DNA of 64,000 bases from Phycisphaerae bacterium (GTDB taxonomy: Bacteria; Planctomycetota; Phycisphaerae; UBA1845). The notes under the pieces were generated by a model. It was not told the origin of the DNA and did not search any database. It saw only the letters and a list, made by a program, of their open reading frames with translations. The stretch lies in NCBI GenBank assembly GCA_029260075.1, contig JAJDDY010000065.1, forward strand, positions 1 to 64,000, in the 5' to 3' direction. Each line of letters begins with the position of its first letter. Position 1 is the first letter of the stretch. The position numbers were made by a program, and so were the translations under genes. Positions 42,008 through 46,476 of the stretch are shown piece by piece.

Positions 42008-44338
42008 TCAATGGGAGCGACCTGACCGGCCCGAAGATAGCAAGAGGTTGCCCATGATCGTAGCTGCGTCGGCCGGTTCGTACCCGACGCAGTGCAGGCA
42101 GGTATGGCCGGTAGCGCCGCACGTCAGATCGTACGGAGAGTGGATCATCACCCACCGCCCCCCGGATCTCAGACCGAACAGAAGCGGCCGATCGAGCCAC
42201 GCGGGAACGCCGCCGCCAAGCCGGCGCCGGTAGTTCAAATCGGAGAGCGATCCAACCTGCGCCGGGGCAACCATTCCCGTCATGATCGGATCGTCGCGGG
42301 GAATGGCCTGCCATTCCCTACCACCAGCAAAATCGGCCGCGAACGCACGAAAAGCCTCGTCAAACGCTTGGCGTCCGCAACAGGCTGACGAAATCAACAT
42401 GCCGCCGCGCCCGAAGTAGTCGCTGAGCGCCCTGCGCTCATCGTCCTTGAGCGGCTTGAACGTGTGCCCCGTGAGCCATAGCACGTCCGCGTCGCAGTGG
42501 GCCAAGTCAGACAGTGCTACCGAATTCATCTCACGAACACCGAGACCGATTCTACGTGATAACTGTTCGTTCAGCCGCTTGATCGCATACGGGTCCGACC
42601 ACCAGTCCCCACCGTGTCGAACCCGTGCGATCGACACGGTCCGAGTGACGTCCGTTGTGCCGCTCGGTGGCCCGTCGATTCGTGCCGGCGGAGTTCGCTC
42701 GAACGTCGCGAAGGCCAACACATTTCCGGCGATCCGAAACAATCGCTCGTAGCGCGCGGACAGGTCTTGCTGCCACGCACAGCACGCGCTGCCTGATAGC
42801 AGGATCATCGGCGTGCGACACCCGTCACGAAACACCAAGACATCCTTGCCAGCGCGGGCTTCGTCGTGCATTGACCAAACCGGATGATCCTTGGGCGGTA
42901 CGTCCATTTCGAGGTGAGGAAAAACCGTGGCCACCATCCCTTTGAATCCGTCCACAAAAATCTGACTAGAGCAACAGGCTGAGGCGATGATTGTGCCACC
43001 GCTGTACACGTAGCGTCGAAGCTCCTGCTGCTGCACCTCGCTGAGCGCTGGCCACTCGTGCGCTGAAACCAAAAGAATTGGCGCGTTGCCGAGTTCGCGT
43101 TCGCCGTCCCCGAAACCAACAACGTCCCACGTATACCTTGCCGTCGTCTGACGATTCCACCAGCGGACGAGATTGGCTGCATCGCGCGGGTCGCGATTCC
43201 AATCCACGTCTTCGCCGAATCGTAGTTTGCTTATGAGCACAGGCCTACGGGTTTCGAGTAAGGCGAGAATCGCAAAGCAGCTTTCGTGAACAGTTCCCCA
43301 TGACCCCTCAGCCTGCTGCCTGTCGACCAACTGACGACTTACGGCGCGAGCCCAGTCGTGTTGGCCGAACGATCGCCGCCCCGACAATGTGCCCAAGCGA
43401 GATACCAAGTGCAGGTAGAAAGCAGGGAACGGGCGATGTGGATCGGTAGCGATCGCCGCCGGGGCGACGGGAATCGAGGTGCTGTCAAAGTTCTTATCCC
43501 ACCACACCCACGCGCGATCAAGGGCTTGATCAATCGCGTGCGGTTCTTTCGGTGGCAAGCCGCATTTGGCCTTGAATCGACCGTTGAAGGCGCCGGCGTC
43601 TTTGAGATGCAACTGGTCGGCGATGACCATTAAGGACGCAAGCCCGGCGGCGGCCATGCTGCGATCAGATTCAACATCCGGCAAAGAGCCGCTGGCGTCG
43701 GCCCCAACGACATAGCCCCACCCACCGTCAGTGTTCTGATGGTTCAGCCAGCTAGCCTCCGCCCGCCTCCATACTCGAGGGCTGACGTCGAAACCGGCCT
43801 CCGCGGCGGTCGCAAGCGCAGCCAGCGCGAATTGTGAATTGGACTGATCGTACCAATCCTTGGTCGGGTTGGCCCTCGACTGCCGGCCATACCCCCATGC
43901 ACCCTCGTCGCTCTGTTGCTTTTCAAGAAACCGAATGTCTTCGAGAATGAGTGGCCGGTACTGACGCGCGTCAAGCGCACACCAGAGCATGAGTGTGAGT
44001 GATCGCGCGTAGACCGTCGTGACGTTGGACCGATCCAACAACGGTTGAACGCCACGCCGCAACCGCGGATCGGTCGGTACGACAGAAGCCCGGCGCAGCG
44101 TGTAGGCGACGAGCGCCGTTTGGCCGAGGCGGAACTTCGCCTCGAACGCCCGACTCACCCACCGACCGGATCGTCTCTGCTTTGACCAGAGGTAATCGAC
44201 GCCGCGGCGGATGGCGGCGTCGACTGACGCCGTGCTGACGGTCGACGCTTGAGCTGGCGGCGACGCCAGTACGCGGCCATACATCGCTGACAAGGCCACT
44301 ACGCAACAGAGAACCGCCGACGGTCGCCCAGATAGCAC
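42008..44338 (-). CDS. Exported DUF4159 protein with prenyltransferase-like alpha/alpha barrel
   Basis: 776 residues. Start GTG 44338 has GGAGG six nt upstream, and the signal peptide ends near VLASPPAQA. Residues ~40-350 resemble squalene-cyclase/prenyltransferase repeats (DYLWSKQRRSGRW, LEKQQSDEGAWGYG, NHQNTDGGWGY). The C-terminal half holds two consecutive DUF4159-like domains: first NAPILLVSAHEW with RRYVYSGGTIIASACC, then DVLWLTGHTFKPL with SDYFGRGGMLISSACC. The related regions are amidotransferase-like folds without a clear catalytic Cys triad. It lies 73 bp after the selenoprotein gene and may be co-transcribed. Function unknown. Confidence 0.82.
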   Translation of the reverse strand: MLSGRPSAVLCCVVALSAMYGRVLASPPAQASTVSTASVDAAIRRGVDYLWSKQRRSGRWVSRAFEAKFRLGQTALVAYTLRRASVVPTDPRLRRGVQPLLDRSNVTTVYARSLTLMLWCALDARQYRPLILEDIRFLEKQQSDEGAWGYGRQSRANPTKDWYDQSNSQFALAALATAAEAGFDVSPRVWRRAEASWLNHQNTDGGWGYVVGADASGSLPDVESDRSMAAAGLASLMVIADQLHLKDAGAFNGRFKAKCGLPPKEPHAIDQALDRAWVWWDKNFDSTSIPVAPAAIATDPHRPFPAFYLHLVSRLGTLSGRRSFGQHDWARAVSRQLVDRQQAEGSWGTVHESCFAILALLETRRPVLISKLRFGEDVDWNRDPRDAANLVRWWNRQTTARYTWDVVGFGDGERELGNAPILLVSAHEWPALSEVQQQELRRYVYSGGTIIASACCSSQIFVDGFKGMVATVFPHLEMDVPPKDHPVWSMHDEARAGKDVLVFRDGCRTPMILLSGSACCAWQQDLSARYERLFRIAGNVLAFATFERTPPARIDGPPSGTTDVTRTVSIARVRHGGDWWSDPYAIKRLNEQLSRRIGLGVREMNSVALSDLAHCDADVLWLTGHTFKPLKDDERRALSDYFGRGGMLISSACCGRQAFDEAFRAFAADFAGGREWQAIPRDDPIMTGMVAPAQVGSLSDLNYRRRLGGGVPAWLDRPLLFGLRSGGRWVMIHSPYDLTCGATGHTCLHCVGYEPADAATIMGNLLLSSGRSGRSH

Positions 44339-44411: not shown

Positions 44412-45233
44412 CTACGGAGTGAGACCACGTTCTATGGTTTTCTTCGATCCCAGTAGTACTGTGGTGTTGGGATGCATTTTTCGCCATTCGCCGAGTTTGA
44501 CGATGGGCACCTCTTCGATAATGGGAATCGATTCGCCCTTGCGCGGACCGGAAATCGCGGTCCAGCCTTTGTCGTCGAACGGATACCAAAGGCTTTCCGT
44601 CCTGCGGTCGAAGAGGATGAAGACGTCCTTGTAGACGTAACCGCTAACGCCGAACTCATCTACTTGCTTACCCTTGTTGTCACGGCCGTGAACCACGGCC
44701 AGTCGTGCGAGCGGTCACCAGCCGACTGTAACGGGTTTGCCCCTGAACTTGTCGTTCACGACCTCGTGGTGATCGAGCAGGCCGATGGGGTACGCGCGAG
44801 CCACGCCCTCGATGAAGAATCCCATAACGCTCAGTTCGTCGTTGGTCTTGGCGGCCTCGGTTTCGCGATAGACACTCTTGCCGAGTGCGAGCAGGCGTGG
44901 ATCATCCGGCGAGACGAACAGCGGATCGTCGATCGCACGAATCGTGTCTTTGCCGATACCGAATTGGAGCTTTTCCGTCGGGATGACGGAATCCGTAAAG
45001 TCGTACCAAGGTGCCCCAGGCGTGCTGGGATCAGATCGCCGCGGGCCCGCATAGATATACGTCTTGCCACCTTCGTGTTTGACTTTCTTACTATCGGGCC
45101 CGAGCAGCCCTCGGTACCTCTTTTCGCTATGCTGACTACCCTGTGCGTGGACGATACACGGGATGCTGCCGAGCATGGCAAGCGAAAGTAACCAATTCGG
45201 GTTCGTTCTTCTGTTTCGTTTGTTTGCGTGCAT
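44412..45233 (-). CDS. DUF3179 domain protein, probable selenoprotein (Sec at residue 173)
   Basis: 273 residues if the in-frame TGA at 44715-44717 is read as selenocysteine. A signal peptide ends near IVHA (residue 30). The DUF3179 core is continuous in one frame across the TGA: upstream VARAYPIGLLDHHEVVNDKF then GKPVTVGW, then U173, then PLARLAVVHGR, and downstream VDEFGVSGYVYKDVFILFDR with TESLWYPF. Standard family members have V-x-V-T-Y-C-P-L-C at this place, so U173 aligns with the first Cys, while the second is Ala. A SECIS-like hairpin follows (44684-44700). No other stop or frameshift is present, and residue conservation on both sides argues against decay. The family is probably a periplasmic thiol or metal protein of unknown activity. 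The alternative is a single nonsense mutation. Confidence 0.82.
44684..44717 (-). promoter_or_regulatory. Putative bacterial SECIS element with its UGA
   Basis: Read on the minus strand: UGA (44717-44715), 21 nt to the apical loop, arm GGCCGUG, loop GUU, arm CACGGCC (44684-44700). A 7-bp perfect stem and a small loop whose first base is G, 16-37 nt after UGA, are the published requirements for bacterial SECIS structures recognised by SelB. Confidence 0.75.
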
Positions 45234-45638: not shown

Positions 45639-46262
45639 CTACGTGCCGACGAGCGAGTACTTGCCGAACCCGATCCGCTTCACTTGCTTGAGCTGCGGAA
45701 GTGTGTTGCTGACCGCCTTGGTCAGGTCTTTCGCTTTGGTCTTGAAACCACCCTTGAGGATCCGCACGCCGATGTCGTTGGGGCTCATGGGCTTGGTGTG
45801 TTGGCTCAGCACGCGGACAATGTAATCCTTCAATGTTCCGGTGCGAAAACTCCCACCCTTGGACTTCTTCGCGTTGGTTGAACCAGCCGGACGACCAGGA
45901 CCACGTTTCCCAGGCGCCCGGACGACTGACTTGGTCGTGGTCATAGAACGACCGCCGAGCGAGCGCATGGCGTCTGCAATGGCGCCGATCTCACCATCGA
46001 TACCGACGCGCTGGGCGAGCAAGTTATCGTGGTATGCTTGCATTTCACCGAGGACGCGTGCCGCACCGTCACTGAACGACGCAGTGCTTCGGACCACCGT
46101 ACGGCCGCTGCCGCGTGGACGTCCCGGACCGCGTTTGGCCGTCGCGGGACTCGCCGACACCTTCTTCTTACCGGTGCCGTGGATCGTGCTGTTGTGTCTT
46201 GCCAAATGCGCCGCCATGGAAAAATTGCGTTTGCATCTTGCACACCTGAACTTCTTGGCCAT
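45639..46262 (-). CDS. C2H2 zinc finger / AT-hook / winged-helix DNA-binding protein
   Basis: 207 residues from ATG 46262 (MAKKFRC), with GGGAG seven nt upstream. A canonical C2H2 finger has Cys7, Cys10, His23 and His28 with Phe14 and Leu20 in the classic hydrophobic positions. Two AT-hook-like GRP motifs follow (KRGPGRPRGSGR at about 43-54 and KRGPGRPAG at 119-127) around a short helical segment (65-103). A C-terminal winged-helix-like domain (TLKDYIVRVLSQ, MSPNDIGVRILKGGF, KTKAKDLTKAVSNTLPQL, VKRIGFGKYSL) at about 144-205 closes the protein. Every module is DNA-binding, so a nucleoid-associated or regulatory role is inferred. It is transcribed away from the metallo-hydrolase gene across a MITE. 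Confidence 0.85.
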   Translation of the reverse strand: MAKKFRCARCKRNFSMAAHLARHNSTIHGTGKKKVSASPATAKRGPGRPRGSGRTVVRSTASFSDGAARVLGEMQAYHDNLLAQRVGIDGEIGAIADAMRSLGGRSMTTTKSVVRAPGKRGPGRPAGSTNAKKSKGGSFRTGTLKDYIVRVLSQHTKPMSPNDIGVRILKGGFKTKAKDLTKAVSNTLPQLKQVKRIGFGKYSLVGT

Positions 46263-46476
46263 TCTCATTCTCCCTTGTGTCAGCGGCCCGTGCGTTCCAA
46301 AAAAACTTCGCCAGTCCGACCATTGGACTGTTCACTACGGGGAACACACACGTTACCGCACTCTAGTCAGCCGCATCCTAACGCTCGCGCCCGGTGTCGG
46401 CAATGCCCCGCAATGTTTTTTTTGGGAAACCAGTACCACACCGTCGAAGAGATATTCCCGCCACTTCCAGGCCGGC

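Follow-up and report, generated by a model that had tools for sequence, protein, structure and literature searches.

The question raised by this locus is whether a gene that the standard code cuts in two is a broken gene or the gene of a selenoprotein. It lies in the window, by which we mean the whole 64,000-nucleotide stretch of Phycisphaerae DNA that was analysed, and its features are collected in Table 1. Standard translation gives two open reading frames of 172 and 94 residues in one frame. The first-pass annotation had described them as half-genes of DUF3179 with a single TGA between them, read as selenocysteine (Sec), and with no other lesion in 273 codons; translation through to the TAG agrees on both points. 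The gene itself was confirmed, while its strand, left unstated before, is minus (45233 to 44412).

Table 1. Features of the DUF3179 locus, in positions of the window.
Feature	Position	Strand	Description
DUF3179 selenoprotein gene (predicted)	44412..45233	minus	273 codons, TGA at codon 173 read as Sec, TAG stop
Probable Sec-dependent signal peptide	45144..45233	minus	KRNRR...WLLSLAMLGSIPCIVHA, read by eye from the translation
DUF3179 match	44436..44948	minus	first half of the Pfam profile only, positions about 2-152 of 292
Putative Sec-encoding TGA, codon 173	44715..44717	minus	family's Cys column, VTVGW-U-PLARLAVV
Putative SECIS hairpin	44683..44701	minus	7-bp perfect stem plus outer U.G, loop GUU

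The TGA and the conserved cysteine of DUF3179

Read through the TGA, the protein matches PF11376 with an E-value of 5e-33 and 115.2 bits, above the curated cut-off of 27. Its sole Cys sits inside the probable signal peptide. An NCBIfam search gave no match, the window has no match to Rfam at the gathering score, and no relative was found in the viral contigs searched. Against the PDB, the protein sequence has no match at E<=1, and the five matches of the DUF3179 profile (E 0.4-1.5, globins and a Csy4) are taken as chance.

The gene downstream (42008-44338) joins a squalene-hopene-cyclase-like domain to DUF4159. By blastp, in the stretches around 14 relatives, some of which end at contig ends, a homologue of this gene is found beside DUF3179 in none, and a homologue of the upstream gene (45639-46268) in two (L173 and L178).

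DUF3179 was matched in 139 of 392 sampled genomes of the phylum, and among the matches listed at least 53 of these 139 genomes have the TGA form. Within the class, the window protein has a match in 128 of 397 genomes. All 39 class matches at E <= 1.3e-32, the window included, carry the TGA. The weaker ones, among those listed, are stop-free except for two with one TGA, one of which is the second DUF3179 gene of the window's own genome. From the 39 TGA matches we took a set of 30, made up of the window gene plus one gene, the best match, from each of 29 further genomes of the class (hereafter the window set). The TGA is at the same place in 30/30, and a codon for neither Cys nor Sec at this position combined with other disabling mutations, the pattern that had been named as speaking against Sec, does not occur in this set. 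Two of the 39 (G742:C332:3570-4202 and G507:C39:36208-36780) have an extra in-frame TAG besides the TGA, be it decay, error or something else.

The wider comparison used 64 TGA-bearing genes, namely 62 TGA matches from other genomes, among the matches listed, and the two of the own genome. They were chosen for having a TGA regardless of its position. In 64/64 the TGA falls in a single alignment column, and none of the aligned domains has a second one. In 39 non-TGA genes, which are a part of those listed and mostly the best-scoring, this column holds C in 33, S in 3, H in 2 and N in 1, so the earlier proposal that the TGA replaces the first family Cys is upheld. The six genes with S, H or N are L127 and L129-L133. 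Among seven relatives in named records, six have TGA, under titles that include Candidatus Zixiibacteriota, candidate division GN15 and Candidatus Neomarinimicrobiota; the seventh, in a record titled Pseudomonadales, has Cys.

A pseudogene, its TGA due to a sequencing error or to a nonsense mutation that inactivated the gene, would be split into two ORFs by the standard code just as this gene is. However, the same TGA stands in the best matches of 29 other genomes and in both paralogues, the gene carries no other lesion, and the hairpin described below shows compensatory changes across the family. Protein constraint is also stronger past the TGA: identity to the 20 closest orthologues is 68% after it against 51% before, and pN/pS is 0.32 against 0.49; the variable N-terminus belongs to the part before the TGA, and synonymous sites are close to being saturated. 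We consider a pseudogene highly improbable, as it is effectively refuted by a shared, constrained TGA in independent genomes.

The same comparison bears on a functional 172-residue product. UGA might mostly terminate, with Sec read-through being minor or serving as a selenium sensor, and competition between termination and Sec insertion at UGA is indeed general. But conservation is higher past the UGA than ahead of it, so the long product must be selected, and regulated truncation of this kind seems very unlikely.

An open frame through TGA is also compatible with a general reassignment of UGA, of the code-4 or code-25 type, instead of site-specific Sec insertion. Yet the next in-frame stop in the window set is TAG in 17 genes, TGA in 10 and TAA in 3. 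Near the usual gene end, TGA thus seems to serve as a stop too. Together with the restriction of TGA to the Cys column in all 64 aligned domains, and with the presence of Sec machinery in the genome, this makes reassignment extremely improbable.

Sec insertion: hairpin and machinery

After a 14-nt spacer, the TGA is followed by the hairpin GGCCGTG-GTT-CACGGCC, with a stem of 7 bp, or 8 with the flanking U.G. Its 3-nt loop begins 21 nt past the TGA and has G first; the MFE is -13.4 (45 nt) or -15.3 (49 nt). The available parts of PMC13188914 limit bacterial SECIS elements to a loop of 3-9 nt, a stem of 4-16 bp, a G among the first two loop bases, a distance of 16-37 nt from the UGA and an MFE <= -7.5. 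The window hairpin lies within every limit given there and has nothing outside them, in line with the first-pass description of a 7-bp stem and GUU loop 21 nt downstream.

Among the 1862 TGA triplets of the window (both strands), 12 are followed at 16-37 nt by a perfect stem of at least 7 bp whose loop has G as its first or second base; of these 12, the TGA discussed here has by far the longest open frames on either side, 174 and 100 codons. Against synonymous recoding the hairpin reaches p=0.020. Its energy is not unusual: of 200 dinucleotide shuffles, 120 fold equally well or better (z 0.32). Taken alone, the window hairpin is weak evidence, and it is the family-wide comparison that gives it significance.

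In that comparison, recoding p <= 0.05 is reached by 30/63 TGA genes (L107, which contains N, was skipped) against 2/39 non-TGA genes. At least 6 of 7 pairs, in either of two registers, can form in 58/64 TGA genes and in 5/39 of the others. Six of the 64 fall below this in both registers, and three of them (L097, L113 and L115) seem by eye to form this stem too, with a single base bulged out of its 3' side.

Covariation was measured in 49 W-U genes chosen by protein motif, excluding 15 Y-U genes whose hairpin is mostly in the other register. Here 85.9% of cells are paired against 66.5% when shuffled, and there are 75 double-change cells against 22.1; for both, 0/500 shuffles were as high. Double changes occur in 6 of 8 pairs against 3.8 shuffled (5/500 shuffles), and control structures slid along the alignment are 30-41% paired. 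In contrast, the same columns in 28 Cys genes (28 of the 39 non-TGA genes, excluding 5 Cys genes of other sub-motifs and 6 non-Cys) are 50.9% paired against 49.0% shuffled, i.e., without excess, and RNAalifold gives no structure for the Cys genes. The covariance check proposed by the first-pass annotation thus came out in favour of the hairpin, which covaries in the TGA genes tested but not in the Cys genes tested.

Within the window set, 5 of the 8 pairs of the stem are invariant and 3 have double changes. One slid control there has a covariation score of 0.134 against 0.105 for the hairpin, yet is 37.5% paired. Because the stem hardly varies within the window's clade, the covariation evidence rests on the wider family. 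The pair 44699/44685 is U-A in 27 of the 30 genes, G-C in two (the window and L156) and U-G in one. The window's G-C pair accompanies a change of Ser TCC to Ala GCC on one side and a synonymous change of Gly GGA to GGC on the other; the direction was probably from U-A to G-C.

The genome from which the window comes (4.92 Mb in 93 contigs, 96.87% complete) has the whole set of selA, selB, selC and selD, whose absence was to count against the Sec reading. The matches to selA (570 bits) and selB (337.7 bits) adjoin on contig 4. That to selD (370 bits) itself contains one in-frame TGA (SCAGUAGK), which we take to be the usual Sec site of SelD. The tRNA-Sec scores 69.4 bits (gathering score 47) and has the anticodon UCA. 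Each is the sole match above the curated cut-off in its search of this genome.

Across the phylum, a strong selA match is present in 48/53 genomes with a listed TGA form and in 50/86 DUF3179 genomes without one (Fisher p 4e-5). Strong here means E below about 1e-70, with the status assigned by hand from the search results, and the "no TGA form" status of the 86 genomes is approximate, being judged among the matches listed. The TGA genomes without a strong match are G082, G164, G173, G212 and G061, the last with a weak match; they are 77-92% complete, and incomplete assemblies are a possible reason.

The own genome has two DUF3179 matches, each with exactly one TGA. In the second gene the TGA occupies the same column as in the window gene (ASW-U-PSEQTIVVHDR). 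This second gene is on contig 83 (L001, minus strand, TGA near L001:1764), and its product looks by eye like a lipoprotein (LLLSGC). In it, and in its relatives L109 and L110, a pair of Cys lies 88 and 91 residues past the Sec position, which perhaps would provide a different resolving site.

With a UGA in the family's Cys column, a covarying SECIS, the Sec machinery and protein constraint after the UGA, we are highly confident that the window gene encodes a selenoprotein in which the UGA of codon 173 is read as Sec. By established biology, SelB and Sec-tRNA(Sec) would bind the hairpin and Sec would be inserted at the UGA, giving the full 273-residue protein. As standard translation splits the gene, selenoprotein genes of this kind are at risk of annotation as short ORFs or pseudogenes.

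A clade with a lone selenocysteine

The residue at position +3 after Sec is Ala in the window protein. In the 30 genes of the window set it is A in 22, V in 6 and D in 2, and a Cys anywhere within the range searched is present in just 2/30. The earlier suggestion of a single-chalcogen site, with Ala in place of the second Cys, therefore stands and extends to the whole set. In the diverse 64 TGA genes the same position is C in 49, A in 8, E in 3, T in 3 and unread in 1.

A FastTree phylogeny, built on 132 DUF3179 domains after masking of the Sec/Cys residue and with some long branches, needs at least 8 changes between Sec and non-Sec. In this tree the window belongs to a clade of 31 rows, starred (100), every one of them with Sec. 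From the residues at +3 and the scarcity of Cys, the lone-Sec state characterizes this clade, and single lone-Sec cases also occur outside it. Selenium seems to be the only reactive chalcogen that the clade has retained. With 30 genes that keep Sec without a second Cys, it offers a natural test of the role of a lone selenol in a family of uncharacterized function.

Fold, function and relation to known systems

Long DUF3179 members consist of two related halves (HHalign E 4.7e-8), of which the window protein has only the first. For the window protein only a poor model was obtained (pLDDT 64.5). Foldseek matches it best to a Rieske ferredoxin, at E 0.16, and the rows given by VIA-align, which reach Z 6.0, are of Rieske type. 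The model of a long relative, L165, has a pLDDT of 82.2. In its Foldseek results Rieske ferredoxins have probabilities up to 1.00 and E no better than 0.027, and rank below unrelated long matches of low TM. VIA-align gives Z up to 10.0 for this model (2.5 A, 87 residues, mostly repeat 2) and Z 8.8 for repeat 1 (3.4 A over 98); all 50 rows listed are Rieske-type, by title or by the known nature of the enzymes. The long DUF3179 model is also matched by an uncharacterized giant-virus protein (BFVD A0A1V0SD44, Indivirus ILV1; Foldseek E 1.8e-7).

At the profile level, repeat 2 and a set of 30 Rieske domains give a colinear alignment with E 0.0012 and a probability of only 19%; the reversed control has E 0.23. 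Repeat 1 is not significant (E 0.12, reversed control 0.37). The cluster ligands of the Rieske domain (PF00355), C-x-H and C-x-x-H, are absent from the window protein sequence, so the protein is not filed as Rieske. A placement of Sec at the Rieske box II Cys was considered by likening H156-x16-U173 to what we take to be the Rieske motif, C-x-H-x(15-17)-C-x-x-H, and was rejected, as structural ranges and the repeat-2 profile put the Sec strand before box I. On the models, DUF3179 likely has a Rieske-like fold without cluster ligands and with Sec on a hairpin that precedes box I. We regard this as a lead that supplies a structural hypothesis for DUF3179.

The signal peptide read by eye favours an exported selenol redox protein that uses outside thiols; this is the most likely function, although our confidence in it is low and the assignment is a doubtful one. 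The product would be exported and would comprise one DUF3179 domain, whose beta fold would be Rieske-like but have no cluster ligands; it may act as an extracytoplasmic selenol redox protein. Since the mature protein has no resolving Cys of its own, it would depend on an outside thiol, in the manner of one-Cys peroxidases, to resolve a Se-OH or Se-S intermediate.

A tentative and rather doubtful scenario for the family is that DUF3179 derives from a Rieske domain and was duplicated in the long members, that the iron-sulfur ligands were lost and redox chemistry moved to a Cys or Sec on the neighbouring hairpin, and that the window's clade later cut it down to a single domain with a lone selenol, an exported stand-alone selenoenzyme without a resolving thiol.

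The first report of DUF3179 selenoproteins is said to be that of Zhang and Gladyshev 2007. The available parts of two published lists (PMC9312934, PMC13188914) cite this work and the Olavius algarvensis symbiont, and give DUF3179 as a selenoprotein family with the motif UxxC/T. The family itself is therefore not new. In the parts available, the selenoprotein-family tables of these papers contain no UxxA for DUF3179. Relative to the literature searched, where we have not seen them in print, what is new is the lone-Sec single-domain clade and the hypothesis of a Rieske-like fold.

The listed selenoproteins belong to the same Pfam family as the window gene and have Sec in the same Cys column. They differ in having C or T at +3, whereas the genes of the window set encode A, V or D there and have Sec but no conserved Cys, and the window protein covers only the first half of the Pfam profile. 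Rieske-fold domains, such as the dioxygenase ferredoxins and NirD, are aligned by VIA-align with the predicted beta fold of the long relative L165. However, they carry cluster ligands that the window protein lacks, and its Sec probably lies before box I, not at a ligand position.
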